From Chitinophagaceae bacterium (lineage in GTDB: Bacteria > Bacteroidota > Bacteroidia > Chitinophagales > Chitinophagaceae): a stretch of 64,000 nucleotides of DNA. Of this stretch, positions 12,620 to 24,945 are shown one piece after another. Position 1 is the first letter of the stretch, and each line of letters starts with the position of its first letter. The DNA is taken from positions 1-64,000 of the forward strand of contig CANNJE010000004.1 of the NCBI GenBank assembly GCA_947504605.1, written 5' to 3'. The notes under the pieces are model-generated. The model was not told the origin of the DNA. It was given only the letters and a program-made list of their open reading frames with translations, and did no database searches. A program made the position numbers and the translations under genes.

Positions 12620-13822
12620 CTAAAAAAGTTTGATCAGGTAGTAAACCCCTGCAGCAAGGATGGCACTCACAGGAATGGTTAAAATCCATGCCCAGATAAG
12701 ATTAATAGTTACACCCCATCTTACAGCACTCAACCTTTTGGTTGCACCCACACCAATGATGGCACCGGTAATCGTATGAGTAGTACTTACCGGTATTTTT
12801 AGCATTTCTGTAATGAATAAAGTAAGCGCACCAGCCGACTCTGCAGCCACACCTTCAAACGGCGTAACTTTTGTAATTCTTGTGCCCATGGTTTTAATGA
12901 TCTTCCATCCACCACTCATCGTTCCCAGGGCTATTGCGGTATAACATGCAAGCGGAACCCAGTTTGGCATTTGTTTGAAACTGGTATATTGTCCTGCACT
13001 AATTAATGCTACCATTATAATTCCCATCACTTTTTGAGCATCATTACCACCATGACCAATACTGAATGCAGCAGATGAGACCAACTGCATTTTTTTAAAC
13101 CATTTTTCTGATTGAGAGTAATTAAGACTGCTGAGAAATAAAGAAAAAATACTCAGTGAAATAATTATAAAACCTATTAATACCCATTTGAAATTATGAG
13201 AATGAAACAGCACTCTTAAAAAAAAAGTTTCATAATGAGTTTTTAATTTTCCAGGATCTGTTTCTATCATATTATATAGCAGCAACAAAGTTGATAATAT
13301 AATAACGAGAGCAACAATTTTTGGTATGATTCCTTTTCGGAATGAATTTAAAAACCATACAGAAATAATGAATGCCATAAACATACCCAGGATTGGGGCA
13401 ATTACAATAAATCCTACTATTTTAAGGATAATAGGGGTGTTGATAACAGCAAAACTGCCAGCGGATGCAACAGCAGCACCAGTAAATCCACCAATTAAAG
13501 TGTGAGAAGAGCTGGAAGGAATACCATACCACCAAGTAATAAGGTTCCAGATAATGGCTGCAATAAGTCCTGCTAAAATAACTTCGAGTCCAATAGAGCC
13601 AATAACGGTTTTGGCAATTGTTTCGCCTACACCATGATCTTTAAATATAAAATAAGCAACAAAATTAAAGATGGCGGCCCAAATAACTGCTTGAAAGGGC
13701 GTTAGTACTTTAGTGGAAACGATCGTAGCAATTGCATTAGCTGCATCATGAAACCCATTGATGTAATCAAAAAGAAGTGCTAATACAATAATGGCTATAA
13801 GCAGTAAAGGAAAATCTGGCAT
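12620..13822 (-). CDS. pit: inorganic phosphate transporter, PiT family
   Basis: A low-affinity phosphate (or metal-phosphate) transporter of the inner membrane, 400 residues with about ten membrane segments. Both halves of the internal family duplication are visible: FHDAANAIATIVST near the N-terminus and IGHGGNDAQKVMGII in the second half, each a form of the GxNDxxN signature. PSSSSHTLIGG and PVSTTHTITGAIIGVG are the paired serine/threonine motifs. It is encoded 46 bases after a DUF47 protein, the usual partner of PiT transporters, and sits at one edge of a probable phosphate-acquisition island. Confidence 0.94.
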   Translation of the reverse strand: MPDFPLLLIAIIVLALLFDYINGFHDAANAIATIVSTKVLTPFQAVIWAAIFNFVAYFIFKDHGVGETIAKTVIGSIGLEVILAGLIAAIIWNLITWWYGIPSSSSHTLIGGFTGAAVASAGSFAVINTPIILKIVGFIVIAPILGMFMAFIISVWFLNSFRKGIIPKIVALVIILSTLLLLYNMIETDPGKLKTHYETFFLRVLFHSHNFKWVLIGFIIISLSIFSLFLSSLNYSQSEKWFKKMQLVSSAAFSIGHGGNDAQKVMGIIMVALISAGQYTSFKQMPNWVPLACYTAIALGTMSGGWKIIKTMGTRITKVTPFEGVAAESAGALTLFITEMLKIPVSTTHTITGAIIGVGATKRLSAVRWGVTINLIWAWILTIPVSAILAAGVYYLIKLF

Positions 13823-13868: not shown

Positions 13869-14519
13869 TTAAGAATACTTTACTATAATAGATTCTATCA
13901 CATTTGCGGCGTCTTCGCACTTATCTGTAACAATTTCCATTACCTGATAAATTTCTCTTTTCTTAATCACTTCTTTGGCATCAGGTTCTGTAGCAAATAA
14001 ACGCTCAATGCTCATATCAAAAATATCATCTCCTTGATTTTCTATACTATTAATTGCTACCAATGCATCCGTTATTTGACGCATATTTTTCATATTGCGC
14101 AATTCGGTAACCGCTTTGTGTATGTGAATACAACCCAAAGGAATAAGGTCAGCAAATTTTTTGATGCCAATATCATCAGGATTAACGCGGTAAAAATTGA
14201 TCTTTTTTGCAGATGCATAAATATAATCTGCAATATCATCAAGCGCACTTGCCAGATAGTGAATATCTTCACGATCAAACGGTGTAATAAAGTTTTTACC
14301 CAATTCAGTAAATATGCGATGAGTATATTCATCATTCACATGTTCCATATCTTCCAGTTCGGTAATGAGTTTTCCTCTTTTATCAAAATCAGGCTCGTTT
14401 ACAACTTCTTTAAGCTTATCACCCATTTTTACAAGCTCTTCAGCCACGCTTTCAAATAACTGATAGAAGACCCTGTCTTTAGGTAAAAAGATTTTTAGTA
14501 TTGAATTGATTCCTGCCAT
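13869..14519 (-). CDS. DUF47 family PhoU-like protein, PiT partner
   Basis: A 216-residue all-helical protein of the DUF47 family, distantly related to PhoU. Proteins of this family are usually encoded next to PiT transporters and are thought to modulate them. The sequence is soluble, with paired acidic motifs such as ELEDMEHVNDEYTHRI and the ALDDIADYIYASAKKI region that resemble the metal-binding E/D-x-x-x-D motifs of PhoU. It is transcribed first, ahead of the transporter, and diverges from a phosphate-type porin across a 125-bp region that holds TTAACA-like repeats. Confidence 0.92.
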   Translation of the reverse strand: MAGINSILKIFLPKDRVFYQLFESVAEELVKMGDKLKEVVNEPDFDKRGKLITELEDMEHVNDEYTHRIFTELGKNFITPFDREDIHYLASALDDIADYIYASAKKINFYRVNPDDIGIKKFADLIPLGCIHIHKAVTELRNMKNMRQITDALVAINSIENQGDDIFDMSIERLFATEPDAKEVIKKREIYQVMEIVTDKCEDAANVIESIIVKYS

Positions 14520-14579
14520 GTTAATAAATTTTGCGCAAAATTAAAATGTTAGCTTCCTTATCTTGCATAAATATAAATG

Positions 14580-14607
14580 GTAATAATTTAGTAACATAGA
14601 GTTAATG
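14580..14607 (+). promoter_or_regulatory. candidate Pho box: three TTAACA-like hexamers, 11-bp period
   Basis: GTAATA at 14580-14585, GTAACA at 14591-14596 and TTAATG at 14602-14607 start exactly 11 bases apart. They lie 38-65 bases before the porin ATG, in the divergent region shared with the DUF47-pit operon. A poor -7-like element (CAAATTTG) follows at about 14625-14632. The same arrangement occurs upstream of the TonB receptor and the PhoB-like regulator, which is the main support. The hexamers are weak on their own. Confidence 0.5.
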
Positions 14608-14644
14608 TATAAATATTATTGAATACAAATTTGAAACTGGGGTA

Positions 14645-15943
14645 ATGAAAAAAATTACATTTATAATACTATTTCATCTCCTTATATCAGTATCCAATGC
14701 ACAGTTTTTAATGGATATGGTGGATACCACAACCGAAACAGGTAAAGGAATCCTTAGTGTATACAAAAAATACGATCATCTTAGGTTTAGTGGTTATATA
14801 CAACCACAGTTTCAGATTGCTTCAGCAAAAGGTGTTAAGTCATTTGAGGGCGGGGATTTTGCTCCCAGAGTAAGCAATCGTTTTATGTTGCGAAGGAGCC
14901 GGATTCGGATCGACTTTGTTCACTTTGATAAGGAAAATGCTGCAGGCGTTCAGTTTGTATTTCAGTTTGATGCCAATGAACGAAATTTTACAGTAAGGGA
15001 TGTTTGGGGCAGGATATTTGAAAACAAGTACAAATTATTTTCATTTACTACCGGTATGTTTGCTCGCCCCTTTGGATATGAAGTGAATTACAGCAGCAGC
15101 GATCGTGAAAGCCCCGAAAGAGGACGTATGACACAGTTACTGATGAAAAGCGAAAGAGATCTGGGCGCTATGATTAGTTTTGATGTGAGAAAGGAAAAGC
15201 ATCCGCTTAAATATTTAAAAGTAGATGCGGGTTTTTTTAATGGCCAGGGGATTAATGCAGCTGGTGATTTTGACAATACGAAAGATTTTATAGGAAGGGT
15301 TGCACTGAAACCTATTACGATAAATAAAAATATTTTCCTTTCAGCCGGCACATCTTTACTATATGGTGGGGTAGAGAACAATACAAAATATCATTATAGC
15401 ACCTCCCGCATTTCAGGAATTAAAATGCAGGTAGTAGATTCTTCGGTGAATAATATAGGAAAAGTATCTCCCCGGAGGTATTATGGAGCAGATATACAGC
15501 TTAAGTTTAAAAACAAAATTGGTTTTACAGAGTTAAGGGGAGAGTTTGTTTCAGGCCTGCAAACAGGTACTGCAAATAGTACAGAAACTCCCACCGCATT
15601 ATTAACAGGCGCAGATGGGTTTCATACCCGCCGTTTTAATGGGGCTTATATTTATTTGCTGCAAAATATTTTTTCTCTGAAGCATCAGTTATTAGTTAAG
15701 TATGATTGGTATGACCCTAATACAAAAGTAAAAGGCAATGAAATTGGTGTCGCCAGTTCTAACCTGACTGCTGCTAATATAAAATATAGCACTTTGGGAT
15801 TAGGTTATCTATATTATATAACATCAAATGTAAAATGGGTATTATATTTTACCATGCCCAAAAATGAGAAAACACTACTGCCGGGATTGGATGCAGATAT
15901 AAAGGATGATGTTCTTACCTGCCGGCTACAATTCAGGTTTTAA
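14645..15943 (+). CDS. phosphate-selective porin (OprP/OprO-type), outer membrane
   Basis: A 432-residue outer-membrane beta-barrel with a signal peptide (residues 1-19, ending SVSNA). The N-terminal YDHLRFSGYIQPQFQ strand and the FMLRRSRIRIDF segment are typical of the porin O and P family, whose Pseudomonas members are anion or phosphate channels. The end, LTCRLQFRF, is a barrel-type terminal strand with a final Phe. It diverges from the DUF47-pit operon and is followed by the TonB receptor operon. Substrate selectivity cannot be read from the sequence; phosphate is inferred from the family and the surrounding genes. Confidence 0.87.
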   Translation: MKKITFIILFHLLISVSNAQFLMDMVDTTTETGKGILSVYKKYDHLRFSGYIQPQFQIASAKGVKSFEGGDFAPRVSNRFMLRRSRIRIDFVHFDKENAAGVQFVFQFDANERNFTVRDVWGRIFENKYKLFSFTTGMFARPFGYEVNYSSSDRESPERGRMTQLLMKSERDLGAMISFDVRKEKHPLKYLKVDAGFFNGQGINAAGDFDNTKDFIGRVALKPITINKNIFLSAGTSLLYGGVENNTKYHYSTSRISGIKMQVVDSSVNNIGKVSPRRYYGADIQLKFKNKIGFTELRGEFVSGLQTGTANSTETPTALLTGADGFHTRRFNGAYIYLLQNIFSLKHQLLVKYDWYDPNTKVKGNEIGVASSNLTAANIKYSTLGLGYLYYITSNVKWVLYFTMPKNEKTLLPGLDADIKDDVLTCRLQFRF

Positions 15944-15950
15944 GGGGTTG

Positions 15951-16011
15951 TTAACATTGGCTTAATATAGGCGTAACAATCGCTTAACATTATGTTCACT
16001 TTCGCATAACA
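15951..16011 (+). promoter_or_regulatory. six-copy Pho-box-like array upstream of the TonB receptor
   Basis: Six hexamers begin exactly 11 bases apart: TTAACA at 15951, TTAATA at 15962, GTAACA at 15973, TTAACA at 15984, TTCACT at 15995 (degenerate) and ATAACA at 16006. A -7-like TCTATTTG follows at 16021-16028. Direct TTAACA repeats spaced by 5 bases are the known binding pattern of PhoP in Bacillus subtilis. A PhoB/PhoP-family regulator is encoded 6 kb away and has the same pattern in front of its own gene. Confidence 0.72.
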
Positions 16012-16046
16012 TGAAGTTTGTCTATTTGCACTCAAATAAACAGCAC

Positions 16047-18833
16047 ATGCGGATCGCAATTTTAATAATAAGTTTTCTCTCCATTTCAATACTATCATTT
16101 TCTCAAAAAGGAAAAATTGAAGGTAAGGTTACAGATGCGAAATCTGGCCTACCGCTTACAGGCGTTTCTGTAATGATTAAAGGTTCTACAAAGGGTACTT
16201 CAACAGATATAGCTGGAAGATATAATTTAAACATTGATCAAAACGGTAAAATTACTTTGATCTTTAGTTATAATGGAGTTACTCAGGAAGTAAGTGACAT
16301 CGAATTAAAAGTTGGAAAAATTACTGAACAAAATCTATCGCTTACACAAAGAGAAAAAACAGAAGAAGCCGTAGTAGTGAGGGCTTCAAGTACTGCGAGA
16401 AAAGAAACTGCCGCATCAATGATCACTTTTCAAAAGAATACCAATACGGTTGCATCCGTTATTTCTGCTGAAGCTATTCGCAGATCACCAGATAGAAATA
16501 CAGGCGAAATTTTGAAGCGTACTCCTGGTACTAGTATTCAGGATGGTAAATTTCTGGTAGTTAGAGGTTTGGCCGACAGGTACAATCAGGCAACGCTGAA
16601 TGGTATTTTATTAACGAGTACAGAACCAGACAGAAAAACATTTTCTTTTGATTTGATTCCTTCTCAGATGATTGATAATATCATTATCAACAAAGCATTT
16701 GTTCCTGAATATCCGGGAGAGTGGGCCGGTGGTTTGATTCAAGTAAATACAAAAGATATTCCTTCCAAAAGCTTTTTTACGGTACAGTTGGGAACAGGTT
16801 ACAATACACAAACTACCGGTAAAACATTTTACAAAGAATCGCAGGGTGGTAAATTAGACTGGCTTGGTATAGATGATGGTACAAGGGCCTTGCCTGCAGG
16901 TTATACAACGAAGTCAAATTTTGACACCATGTCTAGGGCTCAAAAAACCGCCATTGGTAAATCGATGCGTAATTCATGGACTCCAGAACAAATGACAGCT
17001 CCGTTTAATAGTTCATTTGCAGTGAATGGTGGTTTTGTTGGAAAATTATTTGGCAAAAAAGTGGGCGGTTCTCTTGGAATAAATTATAATAAAAATAATA
17101 GGCATCTAGATTTGTTAAACAGAAAAAATGTTGCAACCGGAACATTATTTAGCAAAGAAAATAGCTACGATGATACCAAGTATTTACAGGAAACTACAGT
17201 AGGAGGTTTGGCAAGTTTTGCCATTCAGTTCAACTCCTTAAATAAAGTGTCTGTAAAAACAATCATCAATGTTAATGGTGCTAATTCTGTAACAATCAGA
17301 GATGGATATGACAGTAGCAGGCCAAGACCTTTGCAACATGGCAATGAATTTACTTTTAAACAAAATACTTTTTTTACCACACAACTTAATGGAGAGCACG
17401 GGCTTTCTAAAAAGCTAAAATTAAAATGGTATGGTGCTTTTAATATACTGGATGGATATATACCTGACCAGCGAAGATTGAGTTATGAAAGAGCTACTAC
17501 CGCAGACGCTTACGAAGCTACTATTGCCAACTCATTGTCTCAGCAAAGTGGAAGCCGTATTTATCAAAGCTTGAGTGATTATATCTATACAGCAGGCGGA
17601 GATCTTAGCTATACATTTGATGCATTTTCTTTTAAGCAAACCATGAAGGGTGGCTATATGCTGCAAATCAAAGACAGGTTGTATGATGCTCAATTATTTG
17701 CCAATTACCTCCCTACGGATAATCCTACTTTAAGATTATTAAATTCTGATCATATTTTTTCTCCTGAAAATTTTGGAACAGGCTACGACAACAAATTTGC
17801 CTTTGATGCGATTAAAAATAAAAACTTCCGTTATATGGCCAACACCATTTTAAACGCAGGTTTTATACAATTTGACAATCAATTCAGCAATGCATTAAGA
17901 GTAGTTTGGGGTTTAAGGGTAGAAGATTATGATCAGTTAATTGGTAGTGTTAAAAAATGGGATAGCCGTCACACTTATACAAGGGTAACGGACTTTTTAC
18001 CGGGCATTAACGTAACCTATAAAGTAAATAGCAAAACAAATCTTCGTTTGTCAGGTTCTCAAACTGTTATCAGGCCAGAGTTGCGTGAATTGTCTGCACT
18101 AAACCTTTATGACTTTGAGTTAAATGCGTCAGTGCAGGGAAAACCTGATTTAAAGAGAACTAAAATTATCAATGGAGATCTTCGTTATGAACTATATCCA
18201 AGAGCAGGAGAAGTTATTACAGCGGGAGTATTTTATAAGTACTTTAAAAATCCTATAGAGCAATTGTACAATGAAGGAGCAGGAGGAGCAAGTACTTTTA
18301 CTTATCAAAATCCGAACAGTGCCTATTCTTACGGAGCTGAAATAGAAATGCGAAAAAAACTGGATGCAATAGATGGCTTAAAAAACTTTACTGTACAAAC
18401 CAACGTTTCCATTATTAAGAGTAATGTTAAAGATGAACTCCTAAAAGTGAACAGAGCGTTACAGGGACAAAGTGATTACCTCGTAAATGCAGGGTTGTTG
18501 TATGATCTGGAAAAAATAGGATTAAATGTAACAACGTTGTTTAATATAATTGGTAAAAGAATTTACCTAGTAGGCGATGCTTCTGCGGCTGCCGGTACAC
18601 CTGATGTATATGAAGCCCCGAGGCCACTGCTTGATTTTCAAATTGCCAAAAAACTTCTGAAAACAAAAGCTGAAATCAAATTGAACATATCGGACATCCT
18701 TAACAATAAACAAATTTTTTACCAGAATAATACTATTGGTAATCATTACGGACTTGATAAGAGTACGGATGCTTACAGGTTTACAAGACTGAACGGTACT
18801 ACTTTTAGTCTTTCATTTAATTACACACTATAA
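16047..18833 (+). CDS. TonB-dependent outer-membrane receptor
   Basis: A 928-residue TonB-dependent transporter that imports a ligand across the outer membrane with energy from TonB-ExbBD. Features in order: signal peptide (MRIAILIISFLSISILSFSQ), a carboxypeptidase-regulatory-like beta-sandwich domain (about residues 22-105), the plug domain (about 130-245, with GEILKRTPGTSIQDGKFLVVRG), then the barrel, ending in SLSFNYTL. I chose the ATG at 16047 because the frame's earlier ATG at 16011 lies inside the hexamer array and upstream of the likely transcript start. The next gene, a surface lipoprotein, starts 19 bases after the stop. There is no SusD-type partner. A phosphate or organophosphate ligand is an inference from the Pho-like operator and neighbours. 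Confidence 0.92.
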   Translation: MRIAILIISFLSISILSFSQKGKIEGKVTDAKSGLPLTGVSVMIKGSTKGTSTDIAGRYNLNIDQNGKITLIFSYNGVTQEVSDIELKVGKITEQNLSLTQREKTEEAVVVRASSTARKETAASMITFQKNTNTVASVISAEAIRRSPDRNTGEILKRTPGTSIQDGKFLVVRGLADRYNQATLNGILLTSTEPDRKTFSFDLIPSQMIDNIIINKAFVPEYPGEWAGGLIQVNTKDIPSKSFFTVQLGTGYNTQTTGKTFYKESQGGKLDWLGIDDGTRALPAGYTTKSNFDTMSRAQKTAIGKSMRNSWTPEQMTAPFNSSFAVNGGFVGKLFGKKVGGSLGINYNKNNRHLDLLNRKNVATGTLFSKENSYDDTKYLQETTVGGLASFAIQFNSLNKVSVKTIINVNGANSVTIRDGYDSSRPRPLQHGNEFTFKQNTFFTTQLNGEHGLSKKLKLKWYGAFNILDGYIPDQRRLSYERATTADAYEATIANSLSQQSGSRIYQSLSDYIYTAGGDLSYTFDAFSFKQTMKGGYMLQIKDRLYDAQLFANYLPTDNPTLRLLNSDHIFSPENFGTGYDNKFAFDAIKNKNFRYMANTILNAGFIQFDNQFSNALRVVWGLRVEDYDQLIGSVKKWDSRHTYTRVTDFLPGINVTYKVNSKTNLRLSGSQTVIRPELRELSALNLYDFELNASVQGKPDLKRTKIINGDLRYELYPRAGEVITAGVFYKYFKNPIEQLYNEGAGGASTFTYQNPNSAYSYGAEIEMRKKLDAIDGLKNFTVQTNVSIIKSNVKDELLKVNRALQGQSDYLVNAGLLYDLEKIGLNVTTLFNIIGKRIYLVGDASAAAGTPDVYEAPRPLLDFQIAKKLLKTKAEIKLNISDILNNKQIFYQNNTIGNHYGLDKSTDAYRFTRLNGTTFSLSFNYTL

Positions 18834-18852: not shown

Positions 18853-20307
18853 ATGAAAAAGTATATTTTATTACTATCTGCCGTAGCAGCACTTGGTATT
18901 ACAAGTTGCAGAAAAATTGAGACGGATGGTGAAAAAGAAATTATTATTGTTAATGGCGGTGGTAGCACAACTACTGGTCAAACCATTACATTAACCGGCC
19001 GTATTAATGCTGATACTACTCTAAGAAGTGCCAACACTTATATCCTAAAAGGACTGGTATATATAGTAGGTAATCATACCCTGAATATTGAAGCAGGTAC
19101 TGTTATCAAAGGTTCATTTAGTGGAAGTGATGTAGCAGCTTTGATTATTACTCGTGGTTCTAAAATTAATGCAGTTGGTTCTGCAACAGCGCCGATTGTA
19201 TTTACATCTGCATCTCCAAATCCACAAAGTGGAGATTGGGGAGGAATTATCATCTGTGGTAAAGCTGGTATCAATGCTGCATTTAATGGCACTGCTGGTT
19301 TATACCAGGTAGAGGGTGGTGTAGATAATGCACAAGGTGATGGATTGGCTGGTAGCGGTGATGCTTTAGTGCCAACTCCAATTAATGCAGATAATTCAGG
19401 TACTTTAAGTTATATACGAATTGAATATGCTGGTTATGCATTTCAACCAGATAAAGAAATTAATAGTCTTACAATGGCTTGTGTTGGAAGCGGCACAACC
19501 ATCGATCATATACAAACAACTTATGCAAAAGATGATGCTTACGAATGGTTTGGTGGTTCTGTAAACTGTAAATACCTGATTGCTTTAAAAACTCAGGATG
19601 ATGATTTTGATACTGACAATGGCTACAGTGGTAAAGTTCAGTTTGGTTTGGTGATTAGAGATTCTGTTATTGCTGACATTTCAACTTCTGAAGCTTTTGA
19701 AAGTGATAATAATGCAAGTGGTACTACAGCTACACCAAAAACTTCTGCTGTTTTCTGTAATATAACTGCTATTGGTCCAAGAGCAACTACTACAAATATT
19801 GGTAGTACGCTTTTCCGTGCAGGTGCACAAATACGCAGAAATTCTTCTATCTCTATTTACAATTCAATTATTATGGGATGGCCTACAGGTATTTTGATTG
19901 ATGCAAGTACTGGCTCACCTACAGATAAAAATATTGATGATAGTAGTTTAAGAATTCGTTATACTACTTTGTCTGGTAACGGTGTAAATCTTAAGTATTC
20001 AGCTAGCAGTACAGCTCCAACAGGTGCTAGTGATGCAAGTATGCTTGCATGGTTCACCAATCCATATTTTGGCAATACTGTTTTAACCAATAACAGCGAA
20101 GCAAAATTAATTCAGCCATATAATTATTCAGCCGTAGATCCTACACCTTTTGCAGGTTCTAATGGTTATGCTCCAATTGTATCGGGTGCTAACTTTACCG
20201 ATCCTAAATTGGCAGGCACTTTCTTTACAACAGTAACTTTCCGTGGAGCAATTGCTCCTGCAGGTATCGAAAGCAGCTGGTGGAAAGGATGGACAAAATT
20301 TAATTAA
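18853..20307 (+). CDS. lipoprotein with beta-helix-like repeats, partner of the TonB receptor
   Basis: A 484-residue lipoprotein with a type II signal peptide: the lipobox ends at C19 (ITSC). After a short charged and Gly-rich linker the sequence runs as Gly, Asn and Thr-rich strands such as LNIEAGTVIKGSF, ALIITRGSKINAVGS and SGDWGGIIICGKAGI. These look like a right-handed parallel beta-helix. An acidic cluster DDDFDTDNGYSG near residue 253 could bind metal. The gene follows the TonB receptor after 19 bases, so the two probably form an outer-membrane uptake pair in which this protein takes the SusD place. Its ligand is unknown. A strong terminator follows. Confidence 0.85.
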   Translation: MKKYILLLSAVAALGITSCRKIETDGEKEIIIVNGGGSTTTGQTITLTGRINADTTLRSANTYILKGLVYIVGNHTLNIEAGTVIKGSFSGSDVAALIITRGSKINAVGSATAPIVFTSASPNPQSGDWGGIIICGKAGINAAFNGTAGLYQVEGGVDNAQGDGLAGSGDALVPTPINADNSGTLSYIRIEYAGYAFQPDKEINSLTMACVGSGTTIDHIQTTYAKDDAYEWFGGSVNCKYLIALKTQDDDFDTDNGYSGKVQFGLVIRDSVIADISTSEAFESDNNASGTTATPKTSAVFCNITAIGPRATTTNIGSTLFRAGAQIRRNSSISIYNSIIMGWPTGILIDASTGSPTDKNIDDSSLRIRYTTLSGNGVNLKYSASSTAPTGASDASMLAWFTNPYFGNTVLTNNSEAKLIQPYNYSAVDPTPFAGSNGYAPIVSGANFTDPKLAGTFFTTVTFRGAIAPAGIESSWWKGWTKFN

Positions 20308-20326
20308 TAAAAAGATTTACCCTTTG

Positions 20327-20360
20327 AAAAAAGCAACTCTTATTCAGAGTTGCTTTTTTA
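20327..20360 (+). terminator. terminator of the TonB receptor operon
   Basis: AGCAACTCT (20332-20340) pairs perfectly with AGAGTTGCT (20346-20354) around a 5-base loop, flanked by an A-run and followed by a run of Ts. It lies 20 bases after the lipoprotein stop. Confidence 0.92.
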
Positions 20361-20506
20361 TTTAACTCAATCGGCTTTGTTTTTTATTAATAATTTCATA
20401 ATGCTATAGATGTCCATTGTCTAGAATAAATACTTCATCTTGTAGTTCTAAACAAAAAGACTAATTACCTTTTTCCTTAAGCAAATAGCAAGTTTTAATC
20501 ATGCTT

Positions 20507-20540
20507 GAACCAGCTTTATTCTTATCGCTGGTCTTTTTTT
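20507..20540 (+). terminator. orphan terminator-like hairpin
   Basis: ACCAGC (20509-20514) pairs with GCTGGT (20527-20532), followed by C and seven Ts. No coding sequence lies directly upstream on the plus strand, since the operon terminator comes 150 bases before it. It may end a small RNA or act as a second terminator. Confidence 0.5.
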
Positions 20541-20689
20541 GCCCATTATATAATGATAAAGCCAAAATGGTGGGCTCAACAAATAAAATATAGGGAAGAG
20601 GTCCTTTGTTTTTCTCAAGTAGGTCTCACTATAGTGTTAGAGTACCAAATAGCAGTAGCTAATATTAAAAATAATTAATAGAGAAATAA

Positions 20690-21757
20690 TTAATCTTCTT
20701 TCATTGGAAGGGTAAATCCAATAGTAGTTCCAACATCAATTTTGCTTCTTACATGTATGGTTTGTCTATGTGCTTCAATAATATGTTTGCAAATAGAAAG
20801 GCCAAGCCCGCTGCCACCTTCTTTTCTGCTTCTTGCAAGGTCGGTGCGGTAAAATCTTTCAAATATCCGGGGTAGATGTTCGTCGGGTATACCCACTCCT
20901 TCATCACTTATTTCAATCAATACATTTTTGCCATCTACATTGTAAACGCTTGCTTCTATAACATCGTTCTGATTACTGTATTTAATAGCATTGTCTACAA
21001 GATTTATCAATACCTGTTTAATTTTTTCCTTATCGGCATAAACCGTTAAAGGGAATTCGCAACCCTTTTTTATAATACAGCGTATATTTTTTTCTTTGGC
21101 TTTTAGAAAAAGACTGTCGTATACATCTTTTAGCTGCTCCTGAATGATGAAGTTCTTTTTATTAAGTTTAAGCTGGCCGCTCTCAAGTCTCGATATTTCG
21201 TCAAGGTCGTCTATGAGGTTCACCAGCCTGTCAACATTGCGTGAAGCACTTTGAAGGAATTTTGTATTAACTGTTTCATTGTGAAGCGCACCTCCTAATA
21301 AAGTGTCAACATACCCCTGTATGGCAAAGATGGGTGTCTTTAATTCGTGACTTAGGTTTTGTAAAAACTCTTTTCTAAAAGCCTCGTTTTGAATAAGTAC
21401 GTCTATCTCTGCTTTGCGTTGCATTGCCCAGGTTTCTACATCCTCTCTTACTTCATCAATACTTTTTTGAGGTAAGATATTTTTATAATAAAACTCTTCT
21501 CTTTTAGTGGCTTTTGTTTGGTATATAAGTTTGTATATGAGTTTTATTTTTCTATAAATAAAATTCTGTAATGTATAGAGTATGAGAGCATAAGAACCAA
21601 GAAAGATCACTGTAAAGGCAAACAATGCAATCCACCATAGTGGTTTAAATATGAAAAAGCCCAGAGAAATTGGTACAGACAATGCCAATGCTGTGAGGGC
21701 GGCTAAATGTTGCGGAGAAAAATTTTTTCTAGAAAGCATTTCAAGATGGTGGGCCAT
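20690..21757 (-). CDS. phoR: sensor histidine kinase, PhoR-like
   Basis: A 355-residue membrane histidine kinase. Two membrane segments lie near the N-terminus with almost no loop between them, so there is no large periplasmic sensor, as in PhoR of E. coli. A helical linker of about 60 residues follows, then the HisKA domain with the phosphoacceptor in FLQNLSHELKTP (His about residue 137) and a HATPase domain with the N-box (LINLVDNAIKYSN), G1 (ISDEGVGIP), F-box (FERFYR) and G2 (GGSGLGLSI). No PAS domain is apparent. The frame could also start at 21739. It lies 109 bases after the PhoB-like regulator, within genes for phosphate uptake, which is why I favour PhoR. The signal is inferred. Confidence 0.85.
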   Translation of the reverse strand: MAHHLEMLSRKNFSPQHLAALTALALSVPISLGFFIFKPLWWIALFAFTVIFLGSYALILYTLQNFIYRKIKLIYKLIYQTKATKREEFYYKNILPQKSIDEVREDVETWAMQRKAEIDVLIQNEAFRKEFLQNLSHELKTPIFAIQGYVDTLLGGALHNETVNTKFLQSASRNVDRLVNLIDDLDEISRLESGQLKLNKKNFIIQEQLKDVYDSLFLKAKEKNIRCIIKKGCEFPLTVYADKEKIKQVLINLVDNAIKYSNQNDVIEASVYNVDGKNVLIEISDEGVGIPDEHLPRIFERFYRTDLARSRKEGGSGLGLSICKHIIEAHRQTIHVRSKIDVGTTIGFTLPMKED

Positions 21758-21866
21758 TGGTCTAAGCCGCAAGCCTATCCGTTTAAATTGTTATTGTAAT
21801 TATTTAACTCCCTAAATCGGCAGAAGTTTTTTATCCATTTGTTATTACCTATTGGATTACTCGAAG

Positions 21867-22541
21867 TTACAATTCAAATTTGTATCCCACACCTTTTACT
21901 GTGGTTATACAGTCGAGGTCAAGTTTTTGGCGAATTTTGCGGATATGAACATCAATAGTACGGTCCCCTACGATCACTTCCGTGCCCCAGATTTGGTTTA
22001 GTATCTCATTGCGTAAAAACACCTTGCCTGGTTTGGAAGCTAGTAAAGACAGGAGTTCAAATTCTTTACGGGCAAGTACAATATCATTGCCCATGTGGGT
22101 TACCATATATTTTTCACGGTCTATAGATATATCACCTACGGTAATAATTCCTGTATCCTCTTTTTGTAACCTACGAAATAAAGAGGAAATTTTACTTATA
22201 AGCACTTTAGGACTAATGGGTTTTGTAAGATAATCATCTGCGCCAGTTTCTAGTCCTTTTATTTCTGTTCCTTCATCACTCATAGCAGTAAGAAATACGA
22301 TGAGTGTTTTTTTGAAAGCAGGTATCAAACGAAGATGATTACATACTTCGATGCCATTTTTGCCAGGCATCATGATATCCAGAATAATGAGATCGGGATT
22401 GGTTTGTTTCGCTTTTTCAATGGCATCGTCGCCGCTTTTGGCAGTTACAACATCATAACCCTCCTGTTGCAGGTTAAACTGAATGATTTCAAGAATATCC
22501 GGCTCATCGTCCGCAATCAGTATTTTCTTTGTAGAACTCAT
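21867..22541 (-). CDS. phoB: response regulator, OmpR/PhoB family
   Basis: A 224-residue response regulator. The receiver domain shows the acidic pair ADDEPD, the phosphorylated Asp in the LIILDIMMPG strand (about residue 54) and the conserved Lys in LTKPISP. The C-terminal half is a winged-helix DNA-binding domain of the OmpR/PhoB type (EFELLSLLASKPGKVFLR through TVKGVGYKFEL). I chose the ATG at 22541, just before the conserved KKILIADDEP; the longer frame begins with TTG. It is transcribed ahead of the kinase. Three TTAACA-like hexamers and a perfect -7 box lie directly upstream, so it probably controls its own transcription. Confidence 0.9.
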   Translation of the reverse strand: MSSTKKILIADDEPDILEIIQFNLQQEGYDVVTAKSGDDAIEKAKQTNPDLIILDIMMPGKNGIEVCNHLRLIPAFKKTLIVFLTAMSDEGTEIKGLETGADDYLTKPISPKVLISKISSLFRRLQKEDTGIITVGDISIDREKYMVTHMGNDIVLARKEFELLSLLASKPGKVFLRNEILNQIWGTEVIVGDRTIDVHIRKIRQKLDLDCITTVKGVGYKFEL

Positions 22542-22713: not shown

Positions 22714-24945
22714 ATGAAGAATATATTTTTACTCTTTTGTTTTATAATAAACGTTTCAGTTGTTTTTGCTACCCAGGCAGATACGGTTCGGATTCCATTA
22801 TTCAGACAAGGTTTTCACGATAAGATTGATAAAGAACAATTATTGATAGATAAAACCGACAACAAGCAGGATTTATATTTACACATCAGTAAAAATGAGG
22901 AAATTAATCTGCAGGTTTCGGATGTTTTTTTTAGAAAAATTGACGAATTGCAGATTTGGGTAGAAACCAATGAAAATATTGCTACCAATAATGATAAGAT
23001 CCGATATTTGCGCCTTATAGAAAATATCATCCAAAACTTTAGAATCGATTGGCGAAACAGGAATATTAAACCAATTGATTTCCCATCGGTATACAATACT
23101 TTCGAAACTATTTTAAAGGGAATGCCGACCAACGGCACAATGTTACCTGCTATTGAAGCTTCCTCTTATGAAGTAGCCAAATTAAATGCTTCGGTATTTT
23201 TTGAGAGCAAGGAATACCTAGAAGCGCAGAAGATTGTGTATCTAAAATATTGCAGCCTCCACCCCGATAATATTTTAAAAACCATACGGCCTTTTGTTAA
23301 TGAGATTTTTGCCGACAGTCTTGTATTGGTAGCCTGCAAAAACAATCCTGTTCAGTTATATTCTTATGCACAGTCTATAACCAGTCCAGAGGGAAAATTG
23401 ATCCACAGGAACAATAATGCCATGGTAAAGGTCGTAGCACAATTAAGCCAAACTCCCAACGCACTTTTGTATTTTCCTTTTTTGGATGATCTGTTAAGTG
23501 GAAAAAATACAGTGGAAAATATTAAACAATATGTAGGAGACGGTGAAATTAGTTACGACAGTATTGGATATTTTAAATTATTGGTAAAAACTGAAATAGA
23601 TTATTATAAAAGAATGGCACCCCCATTGAGGGATACGCCCATTGCAGTGTTTGGTGCCAATGGATTAAGAGAGGTTTTAAAAGGCAAAGCATGGCAACAT
23701 TTTATTAAGCCCATCAACGAATTGCATGATGCTACTAATCTTGCAGTGCGAATGAAAGCCATTCAGCCGCTCGGTGTTCAGGAATTATATTTTATGATCA
23801 TTATGGGGGAGAGTGATATATACACTTCCAGCTATAAACATAGTTATAACCGCCTGATGCAATTGATGGGTACCAAGCCCAGAGGCGATTCTCTTTTACA
23901 GAGTGTGCATTTTGATTTCTTTAAAAAGTTTATAAAAATGGCTGCCAATTTTAACAGGCTCGACAGTTTTTTAAAGACAATGCCGGTTGCCAATTCAGAA
24001 ATATTAATGAAGGCATTTGTAGCCAACCTTGATAAAACGGGTAACCTAGAAGATGCGGTAGATGTGGCAGATTCGTATAGTAGTATCAATGATGAAAATC
24101 TGCAGAATACGATTCTTACTTATGTAAAACAAAATGAGCAGAAATGCATTGATGAAAATAATAACAGAGGAAAAATTATTTATGGATTACTTAAAACTAT
24201 TTTTCTTTCTGCCGATACCAGCAATAAAATTGATCTGACGGCTACTATTGGCATCCCTTCTATTTACGAGATTTCTAATAAAGAACTTCAGGATGAAAAA
24301 GGCAGGATTGTGCAGCAAGTGTTTTTTTATGGAGATGAAGATGGTAAAACATTTTTTCCTCCATTCTTAAATTCATTTCCCGCCAAAGACTGGAGTATTG
24401 TTCATAAAAAAGAGTGGGTAGAGATAAAATCTATTAAAGGAAATGTATGGGTATTTGCCAACAAACCCCTGGATTATGATCAAAATTTAGATGACTCTGC
24501 ACAGGTACATCTTGCTAAATACCTGGATGAAAATGAAATGTATCCTTCAGTAGTTGTGCATAGAGGGCATAGCTACTGGTTGCCTGGTACAATAAAAAGA
24601 ATGCCGGCCAATGCAAAAGTAGTGGTGTTAGGCTCCTGCGGCGGTTATCAGAACTTAAACCAGATTTTGGATATTAGTCCGGATGCCCATATTATTTCAA
24701 CCAAAGAAATTGGTAAAGGCGATATTAATAAACCTATTCTTAATTACCTGAACCAATCTATCTTATCAGGGAAAACACTTTCCTGGAGAGATATGTGGAA
24801 ATCACTTGGCAGCTTTTTTGGAAAAGATCCCAGCTATGATGTGAGGGAAAGTTGGGAAGATTATATCCCACCATACAAAAATTTGGGAGCAATCTTTATC
24901 AAGGCATATCACAAACAAACAGAAACGGCCGAAGAAGGTATCTGA
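22714..24945 (+). CDS. exported protein of unknown function with clan-CD peptidase-like C-terminal motif
   Basis: A 743-residue protein with a signal peptide (residues 1-19). I do not recognise the family. The first 500 residues are mostly helical with no named motif. The C-terminal part alternates strands and helices and holds VVVHRGHSYW (H616 and H619) followed about 25 residues later by VVVLGSCGGY (C642). A hydrophobic strand before a His-Gly region and another before a Cys is the layout of clan-CD cysteine peptidases (caspase, gingipain, clostripain and CHAT folds). This could therefore be a secreted peptidase or an inactive relative; the His-Cys spacing is short for the clan. It diverges from phoB across a 172-bp region with a TAAATTTG box at 22677-22684. 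Confidence 0.75.
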   Translation: MKNIFLLFCFIINVSVVFATQADTVRIPLFRQGFHDKIDKEQLLIDKTDNKQDLYLHISKNEEINLQVSDVFFRKIDELQIWVETNENIATNNDKIRYLRLIENIIQNFRIDWRNRNIKPIDFPSVYNTFETILKGMPTNGTMLPAIEASSYEVAKLNASVFFESKEYLEAQKIVYLKYCSLHPDNILKTIRPFVNEIFADSLVLVACKNNPVQLYSYAQSITSPEGKLIHRNNNAMVKVVAQLSQTPNALLYFPFLDDLLSGKNTVENIKQYVGDGEISYDSIGYFKLLVKTEIDYYKRMAPPLRDTPIAVFGANGLREVLKGKAWQHFIKPINELHDATNLAVRMKAIQPLGVQELYFMIIMGESDIYTSSYKHSYNRLMQLMGTKPRGDSLLQSVHFDFFKKFIKMAANFNRLDSFLKTMPVANSEILMKAFVANLDKTGNLEDAVDVADSYSSINDENLQNTILTYVKQNEQKCIDENNNRGKIIYGLLKTIFLSADTSNKIDLTATIGIPSIYEISNKELQDEKGRIVQQVFFYGDEDGKTFFPPFLNSFPAKDWSIVHKKEWVEIKSIKGNVWVFANKPLDYDQNLDDSAQVHLAKYLDENEMYPSVVVHRGHSYWLPGTIKRMPANAKVVVLGSCGGYQNLNQILDISPDAHIISTKEIGKGDINKPILNYLNQSILSGKTLSWRDMWKSLGSFFGKDPSYDVRESWEDYIPPYKNLGAIFIKAYHKQTETAEEGI

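Follow-up and report, generated by a model that had tools for sequence, protein, structure and literature searches.

A probable six-unit PHO box in register with the -7 element of a TonB receptor promoter in the Chitinophagaceae

An array of six direct repeats with an exact 11-bp period lies directly upstream of the gene for a TonB-dependent receptor in the 64,000-nucleotide stretch of DNA analysed here (hereafter the window), which is part of contig C4 of a 3.2-Mb Chitinophagaceae genome. The array stands in a fixed register to the -7 element of the receptor promoter, is conserved with that register in related species and is also present at phosphate genes of those relatives. With a probability of about 0.88 it is a PHO box, and the receptor-lipoprotein operon would be activated from it by a PhoB-type regulator, most likely that encoded at 21867-22541.

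Results

The array in the window

The array, the promoter element behind it and the two genes that follow are located as below.

15940-15950, plus strand: possible seventh, weak array unit, TTAAGGGGTTG, overlapping the stop codon of the OprP-like gene
15951-16016, plus strand: putative PHO-box array of six 11-bp units, TTAACATTGGC TTAATATAGGC GTAACAATCGC TTAACATTATG TTCACTTTCGC ATAACATGAAG
16021-16028, plus strand: -7 element TCTATTTG, TAnnTTTG-like
16047-18833, plus strand: TonB-dependent receptor (CarbopepD_reg_2, Plug and beta-barrel domains; start re-assigned)
18853-20307, plus strand: operon lipoprotein (strand-rich, beta-helix-like model, mean pLDDT 85)

An earlier note on this DNA had reported six TTAACA-like hexamers with an exact 11-bp period, and its coordinates agree with ours. 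Read directly, the hexamers are TTAACA (15951), TTAATA (15962), GTAACA (15973), TTAACA (15984), TTCACT (15995) and ATAACA (16006). Five of the six are TTAACA or one base removed from it, and the unit at 15995 carries two changes. The hexamer of the possible seventh unit, TTAAGG at 15940, agrees at 4/6 positions.

Scored against TTAACA at 11-bp spacing, the six units reach 31/36, compared with maxima of 22-26 in 100 dinucleotide-preserving shuffles of the window (both strands), and the best four units reach 22/24 against shuffle maxima of 16-20. At periods of 9, 10, 12 and 13 the best six-unit scores in the window are 22-24. Tandem Repeats Finder independently reported a period of 11 at 15951-15991, and the array is the sole exact match in the 3.2-Mb genome to KTAAYA repeated four times at 11 bp.

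The receptor promoter and operon

The -7 element has its TTTG at 16025; the last unit starts 19 nt before it, and the register to the array is exactly that of the receptor promoters in relatives. Relative to this TTTG the units start at -74 and -63 (distal) and at -52, -41, -30 and -19 (core). Among the promoters of relatives read alongside that of the window, L012, L018 and L025 are incomplete or mis-sliced. With the -7 box at positions -12 to -5 (PMC9723704), transcription of the operon is predicted to begin at about 16033. The listed open reading frame of the receptor starts at 16011, inside the array; the in-frame ATG at 16047 opens a signal-peptide-like sequence and is the likelier start.

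A homologue of the lipoprotein lies beside the receptor in 79/80 related loci (the best 80 of 349). A fold search with the lipoprotein model gave generic matches only, many of them to beta-helix enzymes, and none with E at or below 0.001.

Conservation of the array in related receptor promoters

Related receptor loci were taken as the best 80 of 349 from a search of genome contigs; they are 58-72% identical and belong largely to Chitinophagaceae such as Ferruginibacter. Six with less than 300 nt upstream were left out and 74 were tested, of which 70 have TTTGC within 110 nt. Removal of the four without it, and of seven more that were at least 80% identical, left 63 non-redundant promoters for alignment and for the matrix. 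The alignment was anchored on TTTGC, the conservation of which is there by construction. It has strong units at -52, -41, -30 and -19 and weaker ones at -63 and -74, with the unit consensus (C/G)KTAAYATTNN, and the periodicity of its information content peaks at 11 (6.2, versus 2.4 at 10 and 2.9 at 12).

When the array was sought first, all 74 upstream regions were found to contain a four-unit array scoring at least 20/24 at period 11. At each of the periods 8, 9, 10, 12, 13 and 14 no more than 2/74 did so, and the same score was reached by 6/370 mononucleotide shuffles and by 4/74 opposite strands. Downstream of the array, with all 74 regions used, TTTG falls into a single one of the 11 registers (8 modulo 11) in 74/90 cases. 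It is clear that the array has what is looked for in a PHO box, namely 11-nt direct repeats in the same orientation, at least two in number, close upstream of the core promoter and at a fixed distance from it.

With a 62-column matrix derived from the other species, the window site scores 40.8 bits and the next independent site in the 64 kb 0.3 bits; a shifted reading of the receptor array scores 8.3 bits, and the highest score among 40 Markov resamples of the window is 11.6. In a phylum-wide sample, 82/198 genomes match the receptor; the 27 loci newly fetched from it, those that matched best, are for the most part 31-41% identical. In 20/27 of these loci the array-only part of the matrix finds an upstream array scoring 15 bits or more, the figure outside the family being 16/23. 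The remaining 7/27 have no clear array upstream, which counts against the PHO-box reading.

Arrays before other genes in relatives

Two units plus TTTGC, searched as an exact pattern in 60 family genomes, gave 42 matches, against 9 for a reversed-pattern control; the window's own genome gave none. Ten of the 42 precede the same receptor family. Other targets are the lipoprotein that accompanies the receptor, porin-like ORFs with a PstS-like gene behind them (G030, G040, G045), a Metallophos gene, an Exo_endo_phos gene, a weakly phytase-like protein, OMP_b-brl_4 and other TonB-type receptors and a DedA-like gene, and several matches precede TPR, Ig-like, unknown or no ORFs (part of the downstream ORFs was scanned). 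One such site, L077 (G006:C2:74392-74425, minus strand), has a DedA/VTT-domain gene behind it, which parallels dedA, a gel-shift target of Riemerella anatipestifer PhoP (PMC9603813).

The exact four-unit pattern without TTTGC gave 14 raw matches in 144 family genomes, corresponding to 12 distinct arrays, against 2 in the control. Five of the arrays precede the receptor family (those of the window and of G085 included), four a porin-like ORF, and one each a Metallophos gene, an OMP_b-brl_4 receptor and an unknown gene; TTTG is in register behind 10/12, a result that, like the count in which the array was sought first, does not depend on the TTTGC anchor. Behind the porin-like ORF, G030, G069 and G112 have a PstS-like match; in G124 the contig ends. 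The label porin-like has a thin basis: the six ORFs compared are homologous to one another, BLAST found no homology between them and the OprP-like protein of the window, and a Porin_O_P match appeared only in G045, weakly (E 0.003). A stretch of six consecutive strict units, read as three overlapping four-unit matches (L294-L296; G136:C4:1669447-1669507, minus strand), has no TTTG within 120 nt behind it and precedes a gene for a 242-residue protein that matches nothing in Pfam or NCBIfam.

The matrix was then applied to 30 PstS-like loci outside its training set, of which 8 scored above 20 bits; the PstS matches are mostly under the family cut-off (6/144 genomes lie above it), and some of these 30 loci need not be Pst components. 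All eight arrays stand before the frame of 406-453 codons that comes ahead of PstS, at 1.28-1.44 kb upstream of the match itself. In 30 SusC loci used as a control (181 kb) the full matrix reached a maximum of 1.0 bit, with 0/30 above 10; on the array-only score one SusC locus reaches 14.9 bits, and this weighs against the PHO-box reading.

Around the best 80 of 349 receptor loci, an array-only score of at least 15 bits was found before OprP in 13/18 cases; the full matrix found 0/18 there, again a point against the PHO-box reading. At the same array-only threshold the counts were 0/79 before the lipoprotein, 0/6 before PhoR, 0/25 before transketolase and 0/15 before the sigma factor. Since no array of this strength precedes the lipoprotein gene, its expression probably depends on the array-bearing promoter of the receptor. 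Autoregulation of the regulator gene through an array is unsupported (array-only score -0.3 in the window, 0/5 PhoB genes in relatives), as is array control of PiT and PhoU_div (0/32 and 1/32 in relatives), and both results speak against the PHO-box reading.

Apart from the receptor promoter, 29 sites in 1.0 Mb score 15 bits or more with the full matrix, and the DNA behind 26 of them was inspected. The genes found there include members of the Metallophos (L123 and L178 scanned; L148, L150 and L193 look alike, unscanned), Phosphodiest/Metalloenzyme (L138, L167), PAP2 (L129), Porin_O_P (L130), OMP_b-brl_4 (L132) and Glyco_trans_1_3 (L122) families. About a dozen of the sites belong to the terminator-ended element described below; a few have another or an unknown ORF behind them, or none. 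Where the label PlcP-like is used, it follows Flavobacterium johnsoniae PlcP (pf12850); the NCBIfam match, under its cut-off, is to UDP-2,3-diacylglucosamine diphosphatase.

In relatives, therefore, the array precedes phosphate-starvation genes beyond the receptor by which it was defined. An enrichment of the 11-bp repeat upstream of Pho genes, on which the earlier note had made its reading depend, is present at PstS-like operons and at phosphoesterase, PAP2 and OprP-like genes.

Further sites in the window's own genome

Beyond the receptor array, this genome offers only weak sites. Two loose forms of the pattern gave 41 and 8 matches against 52 and 6 in the reversed control, no clear excess, and this counts against the PHO-box reading; a third gave 12 against 4, with 4/12 inside the receptor array, and again no clear excess. 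The strict four-unit form alone singles out the receptor array. Three arrays had been claimed for the window, and here we differ: two were found, the second being the weaker one below, and neither the promoter matrix nor its array-only part found a third in the 64 kb.

14579-14619, plus strand: weaker array GTAATA GTAACA TTAATG ATATTA before the OprP-like gene, with TTTG 2 nt out of register

This array scores 17.1 bits array-only, a value that is roughly equalled in 2/40 resamples of the window. On another contig, a PAP2 gene is preceded by a four-unit array with two mismatches (L112; C18:19825-19863, minus strand), for which the array-only score is 21.6 bits and TTTG is one base off register. 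Together with the array before the PAP2 gene of L129, this points to a branch of the regulon concerned with lipids or phosphatases. A second receptor (L114, L115; C91:7072-9870, minus strand) is 36% identical to that of the window and is followed by a 559-residue frame that reads like the operon lipoprotein; its array is weak (1.6-2.7 bits array-only), with TTTG apparently in register.

Neighbouring genes and the PhoB-like regulator

The receptor operon is flanked by the following genes.

12620-13822, minus strand: PiT phosphate transporter (PHO4)
13869-14519, minus strand: PhoU_div (DUF47) protein, adjoining the PiT gene
14645-15943, plus strand: OprP-like porin (Porin_O_P just at gathering score)
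20690-21772, minus strand: PhoR/PnpS-like histidine kinase (HisKA, HATPase_c; under equivalog cut-offs)
21867-22541, minus strand: OmpR-family response regulator (best NCBIfam match PhoB, 230 bits, cut-off 296.2)

The regulator scores 229.7-230 bits against the PhoB equivalog TIGR02154, where the cut-off of 296.2 is not reached, and 208.5-208.8 bits against the Bacteroides-type PhoB NF053854, where that of 270 bits is not reached. It is called PhoB-like only because it falls below these equivalog cut-offs. The genome encodes five OmpR-type regulators, four besides that of the window, which is the best match to PhoB of the four that were scored. The scores under the cut-offs and the presence of the other OmpR-type regulators both count against the PHO-box reading. 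Divergent from its gene lies a frame for a 743-residue protein without a Pfam or NCBIfam family (22714-24945, plus strand), a homologue of which occurs in 4/80 related loci (the best 80 of 349).

The PstS model TIGR02136 has no match in the window's own genome, unlike 138/144 family genomes, where there is at least a weak match; this counts against the PHO-box reading. PiT with the adjoining PhoU_div may be the main phosphate transporter of this genome.

A terminator-ended element behind the operon

In several relatives an extra array lies about 105-150 nt behind the lipoprotein stop codon and is followed by a TTTCTCATGC-like stretch and a terminator, with no convincing ORF close by. A corresponding element is found in the window.

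20473-20542, plus strand: candidate small RNA, the 3' part of a conserved element that ends in a terminator (78.2 bits, E 2.1e-14)

The model used (R1) was built on 12 sequences, of which the window element with its 78.2 bits is itself one. It has 18 matches with E below 0.001, in 17/80 loci (the best 80 of 349) and the window, and all 18 lie on the operon strand, downstream of the receptor-lipoprotein operon. A model of a second form (R2, six sequences) recovers its own members plus others and overlaps some of the R1 matches. Examples in relatives are L149:10464-10529, L152:11810-11877, L121:10383-10513 and L098:1530-1659.

Just upstream of the 31 elements listed, an array of at least 10 bits is present in 22 and one of at least 15 bits in 17, against 15/1781 random windows of the same loci at 10 bits or more, a count that is biased as many R2 seeds were found through arrays. 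Of the elements found by the models that were neither seeds nor found through arrays (L140, L138, L118, L117, L135, L132, L144, L127), 5/8 have an array. At L088, where an array match has no ORF nearby, a marginal element match lies directly behind the array (22.8 bits, E 0.045); in the other 92 loci of that set the models match only L098, an R2 seed, and weakly L102. The window element has no recognisable array upstream (-10.1 bits), and a decayed array at this position gains no support from the matrix. In some genomes, that of the window included, the element persists without an array of its own. The isolate Ferruginibacter sp. HRS2-29 (L131) is one of these, and the named genomes found to combine element and array are metagenome assemblies.

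Rfam gave no match to the element at gathering score (six sources); at E up to 1 there were three sub-threshold matches at 20300-20413, none of them over the element. Consensus folding of the alignment gave four invariant pairs and no covariation, folding z-scores were modest (-1.4 to -3.8 for six sequences), and the terminator stems, judged singly, differ between species.

We put at even odds the candidate reading that the phosphate regulator of these Bacteroidota drives, in addition to protein genes, a family of non-coding RNAs of about 100-130 nt. Such a phosphate-starvation small RNA of Chitinophagaceae would have its own Pho array, a TTTG or CTTG -7 element in register, the TTTCTCATGC stretch and a strong terminator, mostly just behind the operon. 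Perhaps, and this is a guess, it pairs through its CUCAU stretch with the start regions of envelope mRNAs. Alternatively, what is conserved could be a terminator or an element of the 3' end; in L137 and L140 the distance from the lipoprotein gene is only 41-72 nt. No description of this candidate was found in the literature searched, and it is the newest part of these findings.

Discussion

The features described above can be joined in one scheme, in which we infer the identity of the binding protein, activation over repression, and the kind of substrate. On phosphate limitation an OmpR-family regulator, most likely that encoded at 21867-22541, would be phosphorylated and would bind head-to-tail on the 11-bp direct repeats, along one face of the helix. 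The four promoter-proximal units would form the core, occupied by two dimers, and the two distal units would probably aid loading, six units taking up three dimers. Since the last unit, 19 nt before TTTG, occupies the position of the -33 element, the regulator most likely replaces the -33 contact; it would recruit the housekeeping RNA polymerase to a start at about 16033 and so turn on the receptor-lipoprotein operon, with uptake of phosphorus compounds as the outcome.

OmpR-family proteins in general recognise direct repeats of about 10-11 bp, and the array could instead be the operator of another member of the family with another signal, for example an ArcA-like redox signal, phosphate not being the main cue. 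Four other OmpR-type regulators are encoded in this genome, and the motif of R. anatipestifer PhoP is highly similar to that of E. coli ArcA (PMC9603813). We consider this alternative unlikely, because clear phosphate genes are among the array targets in relatives and the F. johnsoniae counterparts of the operon are induced by phosphate depletion (PMC8115612). Furthermore, the window regulator is closest to PhoB of the four scored, with 230 bits against 199 for the one on contig C50, and lies in a phoBR-type cluster like that of F. johnsoniae.

PhoB/PhoP proteins can also repress, and the array might be a repressor or reserve site of a PhoB-type regulator that does not activate the operon. Both activation and repression are described for these proteins (PMC4415409), and in R. 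anatipestifer 583 DAP-seq peaks stand beside only 50 bound candidate genes with differential expression in the mutant (PMC9603813). The fixed register, with the last unit 19 nt before TTTG, nevertheless fits an activator that replaces the -33 contact, and the F. johnsoniae counterparts go up, not down, on phosphate depletion (PMC8115612); a silent or repressing role is very improbable. Chance repetition in AT-rich DNA, to which the 37.5% GC of the window and the control-level frequency of loose pattern versions genome-wide would lend themselves, is hardly credible when shuffles never match the array score and 74/74 related promoters (from the best 80 of 349 loci) conserve the array.

The preferred reading remains that of a PHO box activating the operon. 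The B. subtilis PhoP box consists of TTAACA repeats; the word TTAACA was not met in that role among the papers listed in the literature search. As an operator kind the PHO box is already known, and the four-plus-two-unit architecture of Bacteroidota in the -7 register is a variant of it. No description of this architecture was found in the literature searched, outside which most subscription journals lay, nor was a cross-genus definition of a Bacteroidota PHO-box promoter found there. In the plant microbiome, organic phosphorus has major scavengers in the Bacteroidota (PMC8115612), a phylum in which several outer-membrane systems are phosphate-responsive. With the 62-column matrix and its fixed -7 register, the Pho regulon could be predicted directly from genomes of the group and substrate-orphan TonB receptors could be linked to phosphorus; the analysis of arrays also exposes a candidate phosphate-responsive small RNA.

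Comparison with known systems

A close counterpart of the locus is the phoBR operon/PUSIV cluster of F. johnsoniae (Fjoh_0541-0549), in which, as in the window, OprP, PhoR, PhoB, a TonB receptor and a lipoprotein stand together (PMC8115612); gene order, domains and description, rather than sequence, were used to pair its genes with those in the window. On phosphate depletion the transcript FC there was 8.02 for the receptor Fjoh_0545, 9.91 for the lipoprotein FII (Fjoh_0546), 8.59 for PlcP, 5.42 for the glycosyl transferase Fjoh_0541 and 3.06 for PhoB, with 0.76 for PhoR and -1.3 for OprP, the latter two not significant (PMC8115612). The FC column is evidently log2, since the table holds negative values and the text speaks of log2FC. 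By analogy, the window operon is most likely induced by phosphate limitation, and the proposal of the earlier note that receptor and lipoprotein are phosphate-starvation genes is supported by these counterparts together with the arrays at Pho genes of relatives. Two of the values run against the PHO-box reading: phoB is induced in F. johnsoniae though no array precedes the regulator gene of the window, and OprP is not induced. In the main text of that paper no regulatory site is given, and the words 'promoter', 'motif' and 'pho box' are absent (PMC8115612).

For the operator itself a close parallel is R. anatipestifer PhoP, with which the window array shares the phylum, the hexamer core, a regulator of a PhoPR system and a TonB-receptor promoter as target (PMC9603813). 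This regulator, which gene order and description, rather than sequence, pair with that of the window, has a DAP-seq motif in which TTTAACA is most conserved and bound a TonB-receptor promoter and dedA in gel shifts (PMC9603813). By analogy, a phosphorylated PhoB/PhoP-type regulator would bind the window array. The published motif is a single conserved one, likened to that of E. coli ArcA; an 11-bp array, a -7 register or a cross-genus comparison was not met in the part of the account available (PMC9603813).

A phosphate-starvation lipoprotein beside a TonB-dependent receptor is also described in Caulobacter crescentus (ElpS / CC0171; PMC2996285). The pair resembles the window operon in this adjacency, a likeness drawn without sequence comparison; it belongs to another phylum, and its receptor is reported as constitutive. 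Lipoproteins of F. johnsoniae are 31-36% identical to a low-phosphate-inducible lipoprotein of C. crescentus (PMC8115612).

Classical PHO boxes are paired 11-nt direct repeats, seven conserved positions followed by four less conserved ones, on which PhoB is bound head-to-tail at phosphate-starvation genes; the units are CTGTCAT in E. coli and GTTCACC in S. coelicolor (PMC4415409). The window array shares the 11-nt direct repeats and the association with phosphate-starvation genes, and the idea that this operator type is common to distant phyla, put forward in the earlier note, agrees with the review as regards the 11-nt direct-repeat design (PMC4415409). It differs from the classical box in its unit, (C/G)KTAAYATTNN, in having four core and two weaker distal units, and in a register that is fixed to the TTTG of the Bacteroidota -7 element.
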